This document shows positions 1,931-39,142 of a DNA stretch of 39,142 bases, piece by piece (the first letter of the stretch is position 1; the number at the start of each line of letters is the position of its first letter). The notes under the pieces are model-generated. The model had not been told where the DNA came from. It searched no databases and saw only the letters and a list, made by a program, of their open reading frames with translations. A program made the position numbers and the translations under genes. The stretch comes from a virus: positions 1 through 39,142 of IMG/VR virus record IMGVR_UViG_3300043099_000404, one strand, 5' to 3'.

Positions 1931-4900
1931 TCAATTCGGCATTGTTGTCAGTTTCTGCAAGACTGTTTCTCTGTTCCTCTTGCTGTATTCACCTTGACGG
2001 AAGTTACGCCGCATCTGAGCTGCTTCTTGCAGCCTCACACGGAAGTCCTCATTCTCTGAAGCCATAGCCATCTGAGCTGCACGTCTCATGGAGTTGACCC
2101 GGCCTTGTATCAATTGAATGTGCGGGGGGGCGAGGCTAGGCTCATCCGGGTTGTATGGGCGCCTATCCCAGCTGTCACGAAGCTCCACGTACTCAGGGGT
2201 CTGGATCAACTCCTCCAGGGAGTCACGGAGGCCCATGTCGAACATGCGCTTGTGTAGCTCGTTCTTATCCTCAGGTGTCATCTCCATGCTCTGAGGGCCT
2301 CGATCAAAGTCCCTAAAGCCATAGCCATCATCAGACAGTGCCCACTTGAGGGGGTCCTCAGTTGGGGTGCTGATTCGGATGGGAGAGTTGGCGTTGAAGA
2401 ATCCACCTGTAGCAGAGATGCCTGGCTCCCCGGTGAAGGGGTCAATTGAGAGGGCACCTGTGCTGACCATACCAGCTGAAGCCTGCTCCCACACTCTATC
2501 TGACAGGCTCTTGTACTCCTTCCTGTAAGGACTGATCGTGTTAAAGATACCACGACGGAAGCCTGACAAGGGTAGGCTGTTGTTGATCAGGTTAGCCAAC
2601 ACTACTTCACGTTGTGATTCAGAGGTTCTAGGGTTGATCATCTCTGCAATGGCTTGCATACCAGCAAAGAACGATTTATCAGTCAAACCAGAGGCAATGG
2701 TAAATGCTGCGTATGCACCTAGATGGTGTCCAGCATCGTTGTACCCAAGCATGGCCAAGTTAACAGCATCCGCTGTCATGCCAAGAATTGTGGCAGCAGG
2801 TTCAGATGAACTGAAGTCAATCAACTTTCCACCAACCTTCACTGTCAGGGGTCTGATTCCAGCTGCATCCCATGCAAGTTTTGCTCTGGATCCTGGAGGA
2901 GGGCCGTAGCCGTACAGGTTTCCACTGGCTGCGAGCATTGCTCCACCCATCACCATCATCATCCCTGTTCCAACTCGTCCCTCGTACACAGCTAGTTTGG
3001 CCTGTGCTTCTGGGTCTTTCGACTCCTTTGCAAGCCTAGCCACTTCAGCATAGTCTTTGGTGAATGCTTTGTTGAGGAATGGGGTGTGTTTACCAACGTA
3101 CCTGAGAATCTCCGATGGTGTGTTCACAACAGGAACAAACCACTTAAGCACTGGAACAGCTTCAAGGAACGAAGAGAACCTCTTAACTGCCTCAAATGGG
3201 TCACCCTGGAACGTACCCTGAGCAATCCACTCCTTGAGGTCATCATCCAGGATGCTCCCATCAGGTGCAATCTTCTGGTTGAACTCACCTAGGGCCAGGT
3301 CAAACTTCTCTTTGAGGTTCCCACCATCCCGAGAGGCAACAAACATGCTCTCCTGATATGACCACTGACGAAGCAGTAGATTTTGGAAAGCTTCATCCCC
3401 AGCAGTCAGTAAACGTGTAGGCCAACTGAACAACGGGTTAGCGGCAATGAACCTGTGCTGCAGCTTCATGAAGTTAGCAGCCGCCTTTTCTGAGGGAGTC
3501 TTGGCTCGTGCAATCAGTTCAGCAATCTCGTCATCAGTCTTTGCATTGCTTACGTGATATTTACCATCTCCAGACAACTTGATGGATGCTGGGTCCTTCA
3601 GGGCCTTGGCTCCAGCCGTGAATGCCTCACCAAGTCCCATGACCAGGCCGTGCATCCCAGCCATGCTTGCTCGGATAGAGTGCTCATCGAGGTTGGTTAC
3701 ACCATAGATCATCGAAGACAAAGGCCGCTCAATGACGTTGTAGGCGTTACCGCTGATGTTCCTGAGCTGGGTGATAGGTCCACTGAAGATGCTGTTGATC
3801 ATCACTGAGCCAGCATCCTTGATTCCCACCTTCCTGACAAGTTGCCAGAATGGGATGATCTTCTCAGGGTTACCTCCTGAAGCTCGGAGGGACGCAGCAA
3901 TAGCCAAGATGTCCTGGCGTGCCTCTTCAACGTCTCCAGCCTTCCACTTGTCCTGGATGCTCTTCAGGGTCTGGAGGATGTCATCAAATCCATCCATGCC
4001 CTCATCACCTTTAGCCAGTAGGTTGATGTTTCCGGTCTGACGGTTGATGGGCAGGCCGAACATACGCACCCTGCGACCAGCTCGTGAGGAGGTCTCCTTT
4101 GTGAGCCGGAGAGTGGCAGCCAGGTTGTCGATCATCCGATCCACAGTGTTGCCAAGTGGTTGACCTTCTTCGGTTAGGTGGATCACTTCATCAGCCAGTT
4201 TGGCGGCTTTCTCAGCTGTACTCTTGATGTAGGTCCTACCTACGATCACACCTGGATCATTGAATTGCTCAACCGTGATACCATCAGCTTGACGTACCTG
4301 CTCTACCAATCCACGCTTGCGGAAGGCTTCGATGGGCTTGTCAAGTGCAGACAGGTCGTCTCCGGTGACTGACTCAAGGAGATCACGCTCAGCCTGCAAA
4401 GCGTCAGCCATGTTCTCTCGATCAGGCTTGAAGCGTGAGGCAGCGAACTCCTGGACCTCAGGACGGTTGATGCCTGCATCGAGGATACGAGCAGCAGGGC
4501 CTTCCTGGAGCCCCAGGAGTTTGGTCTGAGCATCCGTCAGGACGGAGACAGTGCCAGTACGGGCCTTGATGGCATCAGTGATGTCCACCGGCTCAAACGT
4601 GGCTGACCGTTCCTGAGGAAGCAGGTTGTAATCAGCGGGAGTGTACCCAGTGCTGATGTCTGCATCCAGGGAGCGGTTGAGGTTGATCAGGACTCTCTCT
4701 TGGGCATCGAGGTCTTCCTGCTTGCCAGGAGGTATAAGGTCTCCCATCTCCTCCAGTTCTTGACGCTGAACAGCGATCTCATCGAGGCGTGCCTGGATGT
4801 CATCTTGGGAGCGAAGGGTAATATCAGCAAACAACTCGCTTTCACGGGTTGCGGCTTGTGCTACCTCATCGGCAGCCTTGGTCATCTCCTCGTTGGCAGC

Positions 4901-32498: not shown

Positions 32499-32659
32499 TA
32501 GTTCTCCTCACTACGAGGTGGCAGTGGATTCGGATGTGCCTGGCCGCAGTGCTCGCATGTCGTGCCAGCAGGCCATCCATTGAGCGGCACATAGCCAACC
32601 TCACTCAGCTTGTAATGCCACGCATGAACGCCAATGAGGCAGAGAAGACGGTTGATCAT
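32498..32659 (-). CDS. 53-residue protein with CxxC pair
   Basis: ATG 32659 is preceded by AGAGGA at a good distance and overlaps the upstream remnant's stop (TAATG). The product starts [16 protein letters not shown] and carries TCEHCGQAHPNP, a CxxC that with Cys7 and several His could bind zinc. It ends in TAATG with the next gene. It overlaps the 3' end of the pentapeptide frame by 59 bp. Similar tiny LCLIGxHxW-type proteins are common in phages; the role is unknown. Confidence 0.65.
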   Translation of the reverse strand: MINRLLCLIGVHAWHYKLSEVGYVPLNGWPAGTTCEHCGQAHPNPLPPRSEEN

Positions 32660-33602
32660 TAGTGTGTTCCTCTTGTAGGTTCGTAAGTTTGATTGAAGAT
32701 GTCAGGCTTGCAGGGATAGAACTCGCCCTTGACTCCTTTGATGATCCAATCACCAGCACTACCCCAGTAGCCGGTGATGCGTCGATCAGCTGCAGCACCA
32801 AGGCGTTATAGCGTGCCCACCAGTACTTGGCTTTTGAATCCATCGCATCAATCCAACGCGGGTCGGCAGTGCGCCACTTTTCAATGGCGTGTTGCTGACA
32901 GCCGATAGCCAGCACATCAGAAGACCACGCAACAGTCCACTGGTCAAACTGCGCAGACTTAATCTCGCGCATGTTGCCAATGGCCCAGCGCAGGTCGGCA
33001 CCGCGCAGGTCGGCGTCGCTCAGGTTGGCGTCGCGCAGGTAGGCACCGCGCAGGTCGGCGTCGCTCAGGTAGACCCCGCTCAGGTTGGCCCTGCGCAGGT
33101 TGGCCCCGCTCAGCTTGGCCCTGCCCAGGTCGGCCCGGCTCAGGTTGGCGCCGCTCAGGTTGGCGCCGCTCAGGTTGGCGTAGCTCAGGTCGGCCCGGCT
33201 CAGGTTGGCGCCGCTCAGGTTGGCGCCGCTCAGGTTGGCGTAGCTCAGGTTGGCGCCGCTCAGGTTGGCGTAGCTCAGGTTGGCGCCGCTCAGGTTGGCC
33301 CCGATCAGGTCTACTCTGCTCAGGTCTGCTCTGATCAGCTCGGCGTCGCGCAGGTTGGCCCCGCTCAGCTTGGCCCTGCCCAGGTCTGCTTTGATCAGGT
33401 GGGCCCCGCTCAGGTTGGCCCCGCTCAGCTCGGCGTTGCGCAGGTTGGCCCCGTTCAGGTTGGCCCCGCGCAGGTCTACTCTGCTCAGGTGGGCCCAGCG
33501 CAGGTCGGCACCGCTCAGGTTGGCGTTAACAGCTTCAATGCACTTGCCGCTGCCGTCGCGCAACCATGCTGCGTGCTGCTGGAACTGTTCGGGTGTAATC
33601 AT
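32601..33602 (-). CDS. Pentapeptide-repeat protein
   Basis: The 333-residue protein has a short N-terminal helix and then 36 uninterrupted A(D/N)LXX repeats (residues 27-206), about nine turns of a right-handed quadrilateral beta-helix. A tail ([28 protein letters not shown]) resembles the helical cap of other phage pentapeptide proteins. The last 55 residues after about 275 are probably spurious, as the frame runs over a remnant gene and the next ORF. Some pentapeptide proteins mimic DNA and inhibit gyrase, but repeat structure alone does not show this. ATG overlaps the upstream stop (TCATGA). Confidence 0.85.
32659..32805 (-). pseudogene. C-terminal remnant of an FRKKPVVIEA-type phage protein
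   Basis: In the frame +2 to the pentapeptide gene, 48 codons without a start codon read [19 protein letters not shown], then [17 protein letters not shown], then [11 protein letters not shown]. The [19 protein letters not shown]-type ending is the conserved C-terminus of a widespread small phage protein that starts FRKKPVVIEA. Here its N-terminus is absent and a TAA (32808-32806) stands right before the segment. The segment overlaps the end of the pentapeptide frame, and its stop is still linked to the next gene by TAATG. It appears to be a recombination remnant. Confidence 0.55.
32985..33524 (-). repeat. Tandem 15-bp repeat tract encoding the pentapeptides
   Basis: Thirty-six imperfect 15-bp units such as CTCAGGTTGGCGCCG (plus strand) follow one another without gaps. 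Several neighbouring units are identical or nearly so (around 33140-33300), pointing to recent unit duplication. The same periodicity makes an artefactual long open frame on the plus strand. Confidence 0.9.
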
Positions 33603-34848: not shown

Positions 34849-35351
34849 CAAATTGTACCCTCACCTAGTAGCAGTTCGGCGCACGCGGCTGATAGTCTCT
34901 GCTCTGGAAAGTTTCCGGTAGTGATAGTTACTGAGGCTTGTCCTGCCACCTCAGAAACAATAATGGGCCAGATCTCTTTAGGTGCTGTATTTAGGTGTGC
35001 GAGCGTGGTTGCTAGTTCACCTTGCCAAGTTGCATCAGCTCCTATCTTAAGGTGCATCCAATCATGCACAGCGCGGAAGTGTAGATTTTCCTGATCGGTC
35101 ATTAGGTCAGACACGGCCGATGTTCCTAGAGTTGAGATGAACAGTCGATCCGAAGCTTCAAACAGGGCTTTGACTGTATCCAAGGGGATGTCAGCTGCCA
35201 CGTAGTGGATATCACAGTGTTTAGTGACCTTTGTGTATTCTGAATAAAGCCAACCATGAAATAGTTTTTTGATCGACGAGTTAAGCTCAATTTCAGGACC
35301 TTTGCTGTAAGCATCGGCCATCTGATGAATCAGTAGGTACGGGGTTAGCAT
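34848..35351 (-). CDS. Hypothetical early protein, His/Glu-rich helical core
   Basis: The 167-residue protein has LHFRAVHDWMHLKIGAD, then WQGELATTLAHLN and KEIWPIIVSEVAGQASV. The pattern of His, Asp and Glu on successive helices could make a metal site of ferritin-like or similar kind; this is only suggestive. It lies 48 bp after the HhH-GPD-like gene and is probably co-transcribed with it. I recall similar proteins in other phages but cannot name a family. Confidence 0.65.
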   Translation of the reverse strand: MLTPYLLIHQMADAYSKGPEIELNSSIKKLFHGWLYSEYTKVTKHCDIHYVAADIPLDTVKALFEASDRLFISTLGTSAVSDLMTDQENLHFRAVHDWMHLKIGADATWQGELATTLAHLNTAPKEIWPIIVSEVAGQASVTITTGNFPEQRLSAACAELLLGEGTI

Positions 35352-35399
35352 AGCTGGAGATGGGTGATAAAGTTGTGGATAGGTTGTGGCTAGTGAAAC

Positions 35400-36065
35400 T
35401 TACTTAGACCGTTTGTAAGCGTAGAGTCTACGGTAGACAATCCAAGTCACCGCTTGCACCTGAGCCGGTGTGAGAATCTCCCCGATCAGATCATAGCTAC
35501 GGGAGGCAACTAACTGATAGGATCTTTGCACTGCAGCATACAATGCTTGACTGATCTTAGGAACCTTAGTCGTTGGGATCCGTTGCCCTAGATAGACTGA
35601 TAATGCGTGGCCATCGACGCAGACTTCATTTTGAATGCCGGTTATGCAACGGAAAAATGATGTAATCTTAGGCCCATTAAGTGTAGACTCTATTAGATCA
35701 GTGTTGTAGATTGTTGTAAAGTTGTCAGTGACTGGGCCACAATGATTGAGAATGTAGGCTGCCTTTCCTCTCATTACAGGATAAGCGGGCACACCTTCTA
35801 TTGAGCATGGGTCCACACCTTGAGACCATGCACTTATTGTTTTATCTGCCGCACGCTGATTCAGCTCCCAGCTTTGATTAGGTGATAGTGCGGCGATCAC
35901 ACCGGCTGCCTGATAGTAGCTGCAGCCATAGGCATTTGCTAATCTATGGGCAAAGTCTGATGCTTGCTGATACCAGAATCGGCCATGCTGAATTTCATCC
36001 TGGCCGGCTAGTAATAGCATGGCTGAAATGTGGCGGGAGTTGGCGCGGGGTTTGGGGTTTGCCAC
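35400..36065 (-). CDS. HhH-GPD (DNA glycosylase)-like phage protein
   Basis: The 221-residue helical protein has GVIAALSPNQSWELNQRAADK (about 55-75), LNGPKITSFFRCITG (129-143) and then EVCVDGHALSVYLG (147-160), ending QAVTWIVYRR. The last blocks resemble the hairpin plus VDTHVxR segment of endonuclease III-type glycosylases, where Asp151 would match the catalytic Asp. No [4Fe-4S] Cys loop is present. It is likely the DUF7178-type family. It could be a base-excision, DNA-binding or base-modification enzyme. It is the first gene after the 624-bp control region, so an early role is expected. Confidence 0.6.
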   Translation of the reverse strand: MANPKPRANSRHISAMLLLAGQDEIQHGRFWYQQASDFAHRLANAYGCSYYQAAGVIAALSPNQSWELNQRAADKTISAWSQGVDPCSIEGVPAYPVMRGKAAYILNHCGPVTDNFTTIYNTDLIESTLNGPKITSFFRCITGIQNEVCVDGHALSVYLGQRIPTTKVPKISQALYAAVQRSYQLVASRSYDLIGEILTPAQVQAVTWIVYRRLYAYKRSK

Positions 36066-36226
36066 GGTTGAGAGTGTCGGTGGGGTTTAGGTGGTTTGAT
36101 TTAACTGTGCACAGCATTGCCCGGATTTGGCAGGAGCACAACCAGCTGTGGGCCGCTTTGCCAGCTGTCACAGTGTGGGCTGGCCATACATATAGAGAGA
36201 GAGGCTTGTGAGCGTGGCAGTGAGAC

Positions 36227-36356
36227 TGAGAATTATTCTCAAAAACAGATCCATCACTTATTCTCAAGAAGCCCCACTATTGAGAATCAACTGGTCTCCC
36301 TTATTGAGAATGCAAGCACCCATCACGTTCTCAATAAGCTGCCCCTATTGAGAATT
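36227..36356. repeat. Inverted-repeat array, core ATTGAGAAT
   Basis: Seven copies of the TTGAGAA / TTCTCAA-type core lie in 130 bp. The palindrome TGAGAAT-T-ATTCTCA is at 36227-36241. ATTCTCAA (36260-36267) pairs with TTGAGAAT (36280-36287). TTATTGAGAA (36301-36310) pairs perfectly with TTCTCAATAA (36328-36337). A single ATTGAGAAT is at 36347-36355. The first palindrome has the 7-1-7 form of Fur-family sites. The array may bind a regulator or initiator protein. Confidence 0.8.
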
Positions 36357-36657
36357 GCCTCCCTCACTGCTCCCACGCCTTGCGTATCTGTCTCTCACGC
36401 AGGTACGCAGCAGCTCAAATCCCTTGCGCTGCAGTGTATCCAGTGCGATTGGACACGGATTGGACAGGGGGCATGGACAAGGTTGGCCCCATTCTTGATC
36501 GGAGAAGGGGGGTATGGGGGGGATTGGCGGCCACAGCTGGGCGTAAGGCCCTCACATTTTTTGGTCAAAATCTCATGGGAGGCCCCTACAAGGCCCAGCA
36601 AGGCCCCTCGACGCTCCGAGAGACCCAATCCCACGCCCAACGACCCCCAAGCGCCTT

Positions 36658-36683
36658 CCTGAGGCTCCTGGAGGCCTCTCAGG
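36658..36683. repeat. GC-rich hairpin downstream of thyX
   Basis: CCTGAGGC and GCCTCTCAGG flank TCCTGGAG and can pair with a two-base bulge. It follows the 48-aa ORF on the minus strand. There is no U-run after it, so termination is doubtful. Confidence 0.4.
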
Positions 36684-36689
36684 CTCGAT

Positions 36690-36836
36690 CTACTGCTCAG
36701 CCCCTTTGACGACCCTCGGCTGGCTCCCAGCTTCCCTCAGACACCGCTGAGCCTCTTGGTAGTAATATGTACCCGGCGACACGGTGGCCAAGACCTTGCG
36801 GGCCTGCTCTACTGTGAAATTGATTTTGTGAGGCAT
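36690..36836 (-). CDS. 48-residue hypothetical protein after thyX
   Basis: ATG 36836 starts inside the last 28 bp of thyX in another frame and ends at TAG 36690. The product begins MPHKINFTVEQARKVLATVS and has a helical middle with YYYQEAQRCLREAG. Amphipathic pattern and overlap with thyX suggest a real, coupled gene, though the length is small. Confidence 0.5.
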   Translation of the reverse strand: MPHKINFTVEQARKVLATVSPGTYYYQEAQRCLREAGSQPRVVKGAEQ

Positions 36837-37471
36837 ACCGATTCAGTGATGATAGGACAATGTAACTTGAAAATATCTAAAACTCCCTCTGCAACCTCCC
36901 GGTGCTCCTTCTGCGTCTCAGGACCCAACCTCACCTTGAGGTAGTGGATCCAGCTTCTAATCGTCCCAGACATGTAGAGCCTACTTGGTGACCCGATAGG
37001 TAGAATCTTCCGAGCACACTCTTTGGCTACACCAGCTTTTACCATTCGACCATAGACATCACGACATTTCTCCTGAAGATCCAGGATTTCAATCTCAAAC
37101 CCCTCGATGGTTGGAATCATCGACACAGGAGGCTGTAAGCTACTCTGCCTATTCTTCCTATCCTGCAACCTCAACTCTGGTATAACCATAGGCCCAAGAG
37201 ACTCAACCTCAGCATACCTCTGACTGAACTCTTGAAACGAGAAACTACTGTGCCTAAGGATCTGGGCAGAGATGTCCCTGGTAGTGTTGATCTCTACACA
37301 CATATTAGCCATCTGAAACGGAGACCAGTGCTCATGCTTCAGCAGGTAACGGATGAGTCTGTCTGGACTATCATTACTGCTCTGTCCCCGTGGGTTAGAT
37401 ACACGAGCACAATACACGATCTGTTCCTCTGCCCTAGGAGTGATCCATACAAGGCTACACGTAGAAGTCAT
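36809..37471 (-). CDS. thyX: Flavin-dependent thymidylate synthase
   Basis: The 220-residue enzyme has the ThyX signature LRHSSFSFQEFSQRY at 72-86. It is aligned with the RHRx7S motif, with the third Arg replaced by Ser75 and the serine at Ser83. KHEHWSPFQM near 45-54 matches the conserved EHxSPFxH helix, and LYMSGTIRSWIHYLKVR near the C-terminus supplies the dUMP-contacting Arg. It makes dTMP from dUMP using methylenetetrahydrofolate, FADH2 and NADPH. It is the first gene after the terminase-early junction, so it should be expressed soon after DNA entry. No clear Shine-Dalgarno precedes ATG 37471. Confidence 0.95.
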   Translation of the reverse strand: MTSTCSLVWITPRAEEQIVYCARVSNPRGQSSNDSPDRLIRYLLKHEHWSPFQMANMCVEINTTRDISAQILRHSSFSFQEFSQRYAEVESLGPMVIPELRLQDRKNRQSSLQPPVSMIPTIEGFEIEILDLQEKCRDVYGRMVKAGVAKECARKILPIGSPSRLYMSGTIRSWIHYLKVRLGPETQKEHREVAEGVLDIFKLHCPIITESVCLTKSISQ

Positions 37472-37506
37472 TAGGTAAGTAAAGAGACAAGTTAAAGTGA
37501 GGTAGA

Positions 37507-37561
37507 ACTATAGTGATAGATTCAGTCGCTACTCCGTAGCTCCTTCATAAGCAACTATAGT
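37507..37561. repeat. 55-bp element, copy 1, bounded by ACTATAG / CTATAGT
   Basis: The copy starts ACTATAGTGATAGATTC and ends CATAAGCAACTATAGT, so its ends are inverted repeats of each other. Inside, TAGTGA can pair with TCGCTA (one G-U) and GCTAC with GTAGC. The other copy is 123 bp away. CTATAG occurs only in these two elements within the window. Confidence 0.8.
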
Positions 37562-37629
37562 CTAATAGTAGAAGAAGATTCAGTTTTATTCTCTATTCGA
37601 TTGAAGAATTAAGGGTCAGTAGATTGAGG

Positions 37630-37683
37630 ACTATAGCGAGAGATTCGGACTCGCTCCGCTCCGTCCTCATAAGCAGCTATAGT
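37630..37683. repeat. 54-bp element, copy 2, bounded by ACTATAG / CTATAGT
   Basis: Starts ACTATAGCGAGAGATTC and ends CATAAGCAGCTATAGT. The first 17 bp differ from copy 1 at two positions and the last 16 bp at one. AGCGA pairs with TCGCT here, a compensated version of the copy 1 stem. On the minus strand both copies read ACTATAG-YTGCTTATGA, similar to the -6 to +1 part of T7-type promoters. Confidence 0.8.
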
Positions 37684-37721
37684 GGAGAGTGTGTCATCCC
37701 TCTCTTTGTGTGTCACCCCTA

Positions 37722-37744
37722 CCCCTCCCCGTCTTTCGGAGGGG
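37722..37744 (-). terminator. Possible hairpin terminator after the terminase gene
   Basis: CCCCTCC (37722-37728) and GGAGGGG (37738-37744) can pair around a 9-nt loop about 75 bp after the terminase stop. There is no U-run on the minus strand side, so it may be a packaging or pausing structure instead. Confidence 0.3.
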
Positions 37745-37817
37745 GGTAAGAGTGGTCCCCTTCTACAGCAAAAGGAGATGATCCAAGTGGTCACCCCTGA
37801 TTTAAGTCGTTGATTTC

Positions 37818-39142
37818 TTATCTCCTAGTCTGGACCCCATAGGGCCTCCTGGTAATAACTAACTCCAGGTTAGATATGGTCCCCCCAAGTGCAAGAATGT
37901 CGAGACTTCTTGTGGGCTCAGAAGTTAGCGCATCTAGCAGAATGTTGAACCTTCGCTTATCCTCTTCCTCAATAGCCATCTCCTGGGAGACAACATAAAT
38001 GTCCTGGTAGTACTTGACTCCAATAGCAAGTGCGTCAGCTCGGTCATCCTTCTTCACAGCGCCTTTTTCACGACACATGCGAGTCAGCTGGTACATCAGC
38101 ATACGCGGAAGACGATCTTCCATAGGCTGATCATTATAGCTCTCGTAGTCCTTGGTGATCAGCTTCTCGTCAATACACACCCGATGCTGATTGAGGACAA
38201 GTTCCATTGTGTCGATGATTCTGTCTTCCTTCCGTGTGGTGCTGCGTTGTTCTTCCCATGCAATCCCGATGCCCCTCTCTTTCCCTCGCTTGATGAGCAT
38301 CTCCATGATTGCACCATCACCGAAGTTACTTTCGATGACACCACGACTGGCGCCACACTTTTTGGCCATAGTAAGTATGCCATCAAGGGTAGAGTCAGAG
38401 TAGCCATTTGTGCTGTAGAAGATATCACGGATGTAGATGATGCCGTTAATCTGCGAAAGGATCCACGCCACGGTCTCATCACTACCACGACCTGATGGGT
38501 CCACAGCTATGATGGTGTCACCCCAAGGTTCAGACTCTCCGATCTCTGCAGGCCTGTACCATCCGTCTCCGGGTAGAGCCACGGTCGGAAGATTGTTGAT
38601 GCGGTGTTCCTTATCTGCTCTCCACACAAGGCTACGTGGTCCCACCTTAGGATCTAGGGGGAGTACCATGAAGTCCGACAACTTGAGGGGGAACTTGAGA
38701 GCGTCAGACAGGCTGGTATCGAGCATGAACTGCAACATGAAGTTGCTCTTGGTCATGCTCGATTCACGAGTCCGTAGGTCGTCCTCAGTGAAACGTGTGT
38801 CGGTAGGTTCCCACTCTAGCTTGGAGTAGTCCCTGCAGTTGTCGATGTCCTCCTGGAGTTCGGCTGCGAGGATTCCCTCGTACTGCACCAGGTTTTCCCG
38901 TTTGGGATACCTAGCAGGCCACACCATTGGGACGTAGTTCCTCTCTTGAAGCGTCTTGTAGATGGTGAAGACCGTCTGAGGAGTACCAAGGTAGGTGATA
39001 GTCGAGTCGTCCTGCGGGATCAGCACAGACTCACCCTCGGTGACCAACTGCAGAAGCTTCTCTCTCATCAAGTCTGTGGCCGAGTTACCGGGAACTTCCA
39101 CGTCATCAAAGATGATGTCGTTGGCACGACCACCAGTCATCT
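37818..39142 (-). CDS. terL: Large terminase subunit (T7 gp19-like), 5' end missing
   Basis: The frame enters from the right edge. The first Met (39140) lies inside the conserved MTGGRANDIIFDDVEVP block, which includes Walker B (IIFDD), so roughly 140 N-terminal residues with Walker A are off-window. The ATPase coupling segment TYLGTPQT follows. The RNase H-like nuclease begins at IIAVDPSGRGSDETVAW, then GVIESNFGDG and DRADALAIGVKYYQD complete the acidic site. It packages concatemeric DNA through the portal and cuts it. At 440+ visible residues it fits T7 gp19 (586 aa). Confidence 0.95.
   Translation of the reverse strand, partial: MTGGRANDIIFDDVEVPGNSATDLMREKLLQLVTEGESVLIPQDDSTITYLGTPQTVFTIYKTLQERNYVPMVWPARYPKRENLVQYEGILAAELQEDIDNCRDYSKLEWEPTDTRFTEDDLRTRESSMTKSNFMLQFMLDTSLSDALKFPLKLSDFMVLPLDPKVGPRSLVWRADKEHRINNLPTVALPGDGWYRPAEIGESEPWGDTIIAVDPSGRGSDETVAWILSQINGIIYIRDIFYSTNGYSDSTLDGILTMAKKCGASRGVIESNFGDGAIMEMLIKRGKERGIGIAWEEQRSTTRKEDRIIDTMELVLNQHRVCIDEKLITKDYESYNDQPMEDRLPRMLMYQLTRMCREKGAVKKDDRADALAIGVKYYQDIYVVSQEMAIEEEDKRRFNILLDALTSEPTRSLDILALGGTISNLELVITRRPYGVQTRR

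Follow-up and report, generated by a model that had tools for sequence, protein, structure and literature searches.

Operator-like cores cluster at the late/early junction of a T7-like cyanophage

Seven copies of the short core ATTGAGAAT form a confirmed array in the contig analysed here (the window, 39,142 nucleotides), and the array core was shown to have the same sequence as the strong half of a site conserved ahead of host iron genes. From these comparisons, it seems to us about evenly balanced whether a host DNA-binding protein, most likely Fur, uses the array as a cis-regulatory landing pad at the junction between the genome terminus and the early genes.

The window, a contig of 39 kb, comes from a freshwater T7-like cyanophage and has all its main genes on the minus strand. 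Its RNAP is 43-44% identical to those of Syn5 and S-CBP2, and its TerL 50-55% identical to those of cultured cyanopodoviruses. The gene order is terL, thyX, a 48-aa ORF, a 624-bp gap, DUF7178 and then the other early genes up to RNAP, with the following features around the gap:

37818..39140, minus strand: terL (large terminase), truncated by the contig end
36809..37471, minus strand: thyX, the final late gene ahead of the junction
36690..36836, minus strand: 48-aa ORF, overlapping the end of thyX
36066..36689, no strand: gene-free junction of 624 bp between the late genes (terL, thyX) and the early genes
35400..36065, minus strand: DUF7178 (PF23802), the first early gene past the array

The DUF7178 homologue of phage S-CRES3 carries the annotation N-glycosylase/DNA lyase. 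A sequence-only reading of this DNA had placed the array in the early control region, which was right, and in a gene-free region of 624 bp, which holds for 36066-36689 provided that the 48-aa ORF (36690-36836, minus strand) counts as a gene; the differences among relatives in this ORF, read by eye, are synonymous. Since the genes are ordered alike in Syn5, where terminase and thymidylate synthase are followed by the genome end, bearing a 237-bp terminal repeat, and then by the early genes, we infer that the 624-bp stretch is the late/early junction where the virion genome ends should fall. No fur gene was detectable in the window, so that the reader of the array would have to be a host protein.

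Composition and significance of the array

The seven cores, each with at most one mismatch to ATTGAGAAT, lie within 131 bp (36225-36355), at 36225+, 36235-, 36260-, 36279+, 36303+, 36327- and 36347+. Over the whole 39-kb window, 18 matches at this threshold were counted versus 7.9 expected. The region 36066-36808 (743 bp) was submitted to 300 dinucleotide shuffles, counting the copies of any 9-mer per 135 bp on both strands with at most one mismatch; the shuffles never gave more than three copies, versus six in the real region by the same count. The clustering described by the sequence-only reading, seven cores in about 130 bp, is therefore present beyond shuffle expectation, and chance, which that reading had named as a way to refute it, is ruled out by the shuffles and by the core excess. 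The array and its neighbourhood are made up as follows:

36225..36243, no strand: inward-facing core pair including the 7-1-7 palindrome TGAGAAT-T-ATTCTCA (36227-36241)
36260..36287, no strand: outward-facing canonical pair P1, ATTCTCAAGAAGCCCCACTATTGAGAAT, 28 bp
36303..36311, plus strand: lone core CTTATTGAGAAT, an exact 9-mer, between P1 and P2
36327..36355, no strand: outward-facing canonical pair P2, GTTCTCAATAAGCTGCCCCTATTGAGAAT, 29 bp
36380..36412, no strand: palindromic element TTGCGTATCTG...CAGGTACGCAG, read by eye
36419..36433, minus strand: second terminal element TGCAGCGCAAGGGAT, common to the Syn5 terminal repeat and S-SRP01

The spacers of 1, 12 and 17 nt and the palindrome at 36227-36241 are as first described, but the reading as three ordered pairs of increasing spacing is not upheld: the cores point inward in pairs 1 and 3 but outward in pair 2, and the unit that recurs in relatives is an outward pair of 28-30 bp, represented here by 36260-36287 and 36327-36355.

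No known RNA family was matched (Rfam, 35300-39142, up to E 0.1). An RNA hairpin as the general function was rejected by reasoning, the repeats of Syn5 being direct, some relatives having single cores and the first window pair leaving a 1-nt loop. Phage RNAP promoter repeats were also ruled out because the Syn5-type single-subunit RNAP promoter ATTGGGCACCCGTAA had no match in the window within three mismatches.

Two other elements were noticed on the terL side. The palindrome TGCGTAYCTG...CAGRTACGCA (36380-36412) also occurs beside the sites of the freshwater loci L016, L023 and L026. The sequence TGCAGCGYAAGGGAT is common to window 36419-36433 (minus strand), the Syn5 terminal repeat and S-SRP01 (L094:114, L226:3967 and L136:1149), and is a second conserved terminal element, perhaps for terminase.

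Conservation in close relatives

Absence of the array from close relatives that keep the flanking genes had been proposed as evidence against it, and the outcome was mixed. All seven cores are retained in L002 and L005/L093 (about 99% identical), but L004 (91-96% identical) has lost the middle three cores despite retaining the flanking genes. The 7-1-7 palindrome is broken in L004 (TGGGAAC-C-ATTCTCA), and the pair 36327-36355, retained exactly, is the sole part of the array intact there. The contig of another relative (L003/L008) stops at the first core. The array has one perfect 7-1-7 pair, at 36227-36241, and its other cores do not carry the second half of the host box; as the palindrome is broken in L004 and is not the recurring geometry, it gives no clear support to the Fur/PerR argument first drawn from it. 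In L004, unrelated sequence of near-equal length (3731-4225) replaces the middle of the array, and about 210 bp are inserted beside the first early gene.

Position of the core relative to terL

We collected T7-like loci via TerL and compared 28 terL-anchored loci. The form TATTGAGAAT occurs 17 times between 1.3 and 2.3 kb past the terL stop (23.3 kb in total) and not once in the other 207 kb of the 28 loci, and it is present in 12 of the 22 loci that extend far enough past terL. In relatives, the junction core usually takes the form of the 11-mer TTATTGAGAAT. Among cultured phages it is found at the junction of Syn5, S-CBP2, S-SRP01 and DSL-LC07: S-CBP2 and S-SRP01 have one site each and DSL-LC07 a pair, and the 237-bp direct terminal repeat of Syn5 contains two ATTGAGAAT cores. 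The core was thus shown to be a position-specific element of the junction in relatives whose RNAP or TerL is only 43-66% identical. It is not essential to the group, since TTATTGAGAAT was not found at the junction of seven cultured relatives (P60, P-SSP7, S-TIP37, S-TIP28, SS120-1, S-CBP42 and S-CBP4); it was also not found in Anabaena phage A-4L or T7. S-RIP1 carries a single copy, distant from its terL, and a DNA-level search with the whole array in the named phages gave no match.

Such a position would also suit an element of genome-end processing, a counterpart of the T7 SRL/SRR repeats acting in concatemer processing or packaging, whose likeness to a Fur box would be incidental. We consider this rather unlikely. 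The gene order does put the array at the terminus, a core lies inside the terminal repeat of Syn5, and T7 has arrays of a short repeat, CCTAAAG, next to its terminal repeat and close to the early promoters at the genome end (left, 8 copies in about 160 bp; right, 5). However, the T7 repeats are direct and of another motif, whereas the array cores are mixed or outward-facing; moreover, the core matches a conserved host iron-gene site, and large phages outside the T7-like group, cyanomyovirus relatives among them, share both the core and the pair geometry at places that are not near any known end.

An outward-facing pair of fixed geometry is shared by unrelated phages

The recurring unit is the outward-facing pair ATTCTCAATAA-N7/8-TTATTGAGAAT, 28-30 bp long. 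A scan of viral contigs that permitted lengths of 22-32 bp, with an estimated chance expectation of about one match, found it in at least 120 contigs, of T7-like phages and others including cyanomyovirus relatives. Among the matches listed, 139 of 141 pairs measure 28-30 bp (30 bp, 78 pairs; 29 bp, 49; 28 bp, 12), and almost all those of T7-like relatives are 29 bp. The outward pair was therefore shown to be of fixed length, with two helical turns between the cores, and common to unrelated phages. Only seven of 120 loci among the matches listed encode a relative of any of twelve core proteins of the window, and among the remaining pair loci many are cyanomyovirus-like. A marker protein encoded close to pairs shares 67% identity with a protein of S-SRM01, which itself carries ATTCTCAATAAGTGGTTGCAAATGAGAAT, and otherwise has matches almost only in Synechococcus and Prochlorococcus phages. 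Two contigs of 62 kb and 146 kb each have the 11-mer only within two pairs about 700 bp apart.

In the cyanomyovirus-like loci L170, L480, L438 and S-SRM01 (85350-85990), a small acidic ORF (MYDDYDFDYTY...LAYRHYA) lies in an otherwise mostly non-coding stretch, with sites or pairs on both sides of it separated by 0.6-0.8 kb.

Replication iterons, or an origin with initiator-binding sites as the sequence-only reading had suggested, would fit repeats about 20-25 bp apart in a non-coding region. We regard this as highly improbable: the orientations are mixed, the number falls to one copy in relatives, the sites occur in unrelated phages and resemble a host transcription-factor site, and no support for that alternative was found.

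Relation of the pair to promoters

In T7-like relatives, 7 of 13 distinct contigs have a -35-like hexamer, mostly TTGAC[C/G], that begins exactly 21 bp downstream of the pair; in those seven a -10-like hexamer comes 17-18 bp further on, and all read toward the early genes. A sigma-70-type -35 at 21 bp was thus shown in about half of the T7-like relatives having the pair. With +1 placed seven bases past the -10, these promoter matches put the pair centre near -72. In the cyanomyovirus-like group, whose sequences are related to each other, the commonest -35 offset is 31 bp, one helical turn more, and both pairs of the 62-kb phage lie 23-24 bp ahead of near-perfect promoters. Around all viral pairs, promoter matches numbered 48 versus 40 in shuffles, with no overall excess beyond the 21- and 31-bp peaks. 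Consensus search found neither a sigma-70 promoter nor a terminator near the window's own array; the promoter relation was therefore shown in relatives only.

The core corresponds to half of a conserved host site at iron genes

The footprint-derived FurA consensus of Anabaena PCC 7120 is AAATAAATTCTCAATAAAT, and the furA promoter site is ATAAATATTCTCAATAAGC (PMC4005646). The core of the footprinted Fur sites, TTCTCAATAA, is matched by exact or near-exact array cores; ATTCTCAATAA falls within the FurA consensus and ATTCTCAATAAGC in the furA promoter, so that ATTCTCAATAA(G) is common to the consensus, the furA promoter site and the phage sites. In contrast to the Anabaena box, the phage sites have no AT-rich 19-mer flanks and form outward pairs 19-21 bp apart. 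Array cores also have no second half of the host box (TTGCAA), and the best score of the full FurA 19-mer in the array was 12/19, which several other places in the window equal, with none within three mismatches.

Named picocyanobacterial genomes were reached via a phage psbA gene. Each of ten such genomes contains 0-3 copies of TATTGAGAAT; those placed upstream of genes adjoin iron genes, and most others lie inside open frames. The host sites are:

L322, L324, L335: upstream of a Crp-type regulator gene, close to ferritin, fur and ABC permease genes
L326, L369: upstream of feoB
L329: between futA and futB

The fur gene adjoins the site in L335 and L426. A universal feoB signal was ruled out, the exact core being upstream in 2 of 11 true FeoB loci. 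The extended box TATTGAGAATNNNTTGCAA occurs in 154 of 300 Cyanobiaceae genomes (reversed control, 0). Among 30 sampled boxes, 29 are upstream of a Crp-type regulator gene, 28 of these at about 50-95 bp, and 28 of the 30 have a ferritin gene nearby. The single phage site of S-CBP2, TTATTGAGAATCGTTTGCAA, is a complete host box.

Across Cyanobiaceae, including L322 and L335, a Crp-type regulator gene with a conserved TTGCTATTGAGAATCGCTTGCAA box is seen near ferritin; several genomes show two boxes at identical positions of two contigs, apparently duplicates.

The outward pair was found in none of 300 host-family genomes. Of 145 class-level genomes two had it, in neither case near a recognised iron gene, and the genomes searched thus gave no host precedent for the geometry. 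The half-site accordingly has a different setting in the hosts, and the phages arrange it in a pair geometry peculiar to them.

The best candidate for the reader is host Fur, because the core lies upstream of host iron genes and inside the FurA consensus. The proposal of a host Fur-family operator in the sequence-only reading is accordingly supported in part, for the core, through the FurA consensus and the rare TATTGAGAAT sites upstream of host iron genes, but not through its palindrome argument. The Crp-type regulator is a serious alternative. About -72 is the classical class I position of Crp-family activators, as for the pair centre in relatives, and nearly all sampled host boxes precede a Crp-type gene, which would suggest autoregulation. 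An operator of such a protein, or of another host regulator such as PerR or Zur, nevertheless seems unlikely, since the box is also found upstream of feoB and between futA and futB, the core is inside a footprint-derived FurA consensus, and there is no resemblance to TGTGA-N6-TCACA.

Marine relatives carry different arrays at the junction

Four marine T7-like loci (L071, L077, L082 and L091) have 9-12 boxes close to AGTACNNNTGTACT after terL, and a fifth, L073, on a cut contig, has four:

L071:5051-5508: LexA-like array
L077:6787-7245: LexA-like array
L082:6828-7275: LexA-like array
L091:3578-3946: LexA-like array
L073:6828-6962: LexA-like array

Only 25 such boxes occur elsewhere, in about 554 kb of terL loci with the five array loci left out. 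The published cyanobacterial LexA box is AGTACWNWTGTACT (PMC3091678), and by sequence the boxes close to AGTACNNNTGTACT are this LexA box. They form arrays of a host operator at the place equivalent to that of the window array, but for another regulator and with another motif. No LexA box was found near terL of the cultured P-SSP10 and 9515-10a. At L079:4465-4570, ACCTAAGTA repeats have a 14-bp spacing that recalls the T7 ACCTAAAG repeats with their 13-bp spacing.

These findings suggest that arrays of operators for different host regulators can be accommodated at the junction. They are also consistent with a general genome-end role, the repeats of L079 included, and the T7 SRL-like alternative keeps weight for this reason.

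A proposed role for the array and comparison with known systems

If host Fur reads the array, each core would be one Fur contact, and several Fur dimers would tile the array and modulate the first, host-RNAP-dependent transcription. The pair centre near -72 in relatives would be an activator-like position, from which Fur would raise early transcription under iron-replete conditions, an effect that iron loss or oxidation would diminish. The copies of phage DNA made in replication could also titrate Fur, either as a by-product or as the chief purpose. In the latter case, the array would mainly be a decoy that binds up host Fur during multiplication of the phage genome and so derepresses host genes for iron uptake and flavodoxin. 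A decoy would need no nearby promoter, such as was not found in the window, and would agree with multiple cores per genome and with the 9-12 LexA-like boxes in one stretch of marine relatives. We nonetheless hold it to be improbable, as many relatives have one pair or site, often at a fixed distance from a promoter, and FurA is reportedly unusually abundant in the cell (PMC4005646), so that few sites would titrate poorly.

More tentatively, and with the chances rather against it, unrelated cyanophages (T7-like, cyanomyovirus-like and at least one other type) may share a phage-only double operator, the terminus junction being a modular pad for host state. The double operator ATTCTCAATAA-N7/8-TTATTGAGAAT would then consist of two copies of the host Fur half-site on a fixed helix face relative to a sigma-70 promoter, and through the pad, lytic-type phages would sense the iron, redox or DNA-damage state of the host as infection begins.

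The nearest precedent is the Pho boxes in cyanomyophages S-PM2d and P-SSM2, read by host PhoBR, with PhoB binding demonstrated by gel shift for S-PM2d (PMC10976474). In that system a nutrient-stress operator of the host lies in phage promoter regions, as would be the case here. The Pho-box system, however, involves PhoB and dispersed phage genes, whereas the array has Fur as a candidate and lies at the early/terminal junction with fixed geometry; a candidate operator at a defined distance from a promoter, as in Pho-box-type promoters, is seen in relatives (pair 21 bp before TTGAC[C/G]), but no promoter was found near the window array.

Host iron regulators also repress phage-borne genes, stx1 by Fur and corynephage tox by DtxR, so that phage DNA is read by an iron regulator of the host, as proposed for the array. 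In those temperate phages a single operator serves one accessory gene, whereas here an array lies at the early-gene junction of an apparently lytic-type phage. We found no report of Fur boxes in cyanophages in the open-access literature, subscription papers being outside the scope of the search; within the open-access sources searched, the regulator candidate, the genome-end array and the shared phage-only geometry are new.

T7-like cyanophages are usually viewed as following a fixed transcription programme. If Fur reads the sites, they would sense host iron or redox state at their first promoter, and iron limitation in lakes and oceans would be tied to infection outcome, which is directly testable in the cultured S-SRP01, DSL-LC07, Syn5 and S-CBP2. 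Sites at fixed spacing in unrelated cyanobacterial viruses may mean that infection is tuned to host iron state, and the fixed geometry offers a searchable signature for phages under such control.

Other repeats in the window

Two imperfect 30-nt repeats with CTATAGT ends lie between terL and thyX (37532-37561 and 37654-37683) and are possible phage RNAP promoters or processing sites. A gene at 32601-33602 (minus strand) contains a 15-bp tandem repeat; its sole near DNA match among named phages is a gene of Salmonella phage g341c annotated as a pentapeptide-repeat protein.
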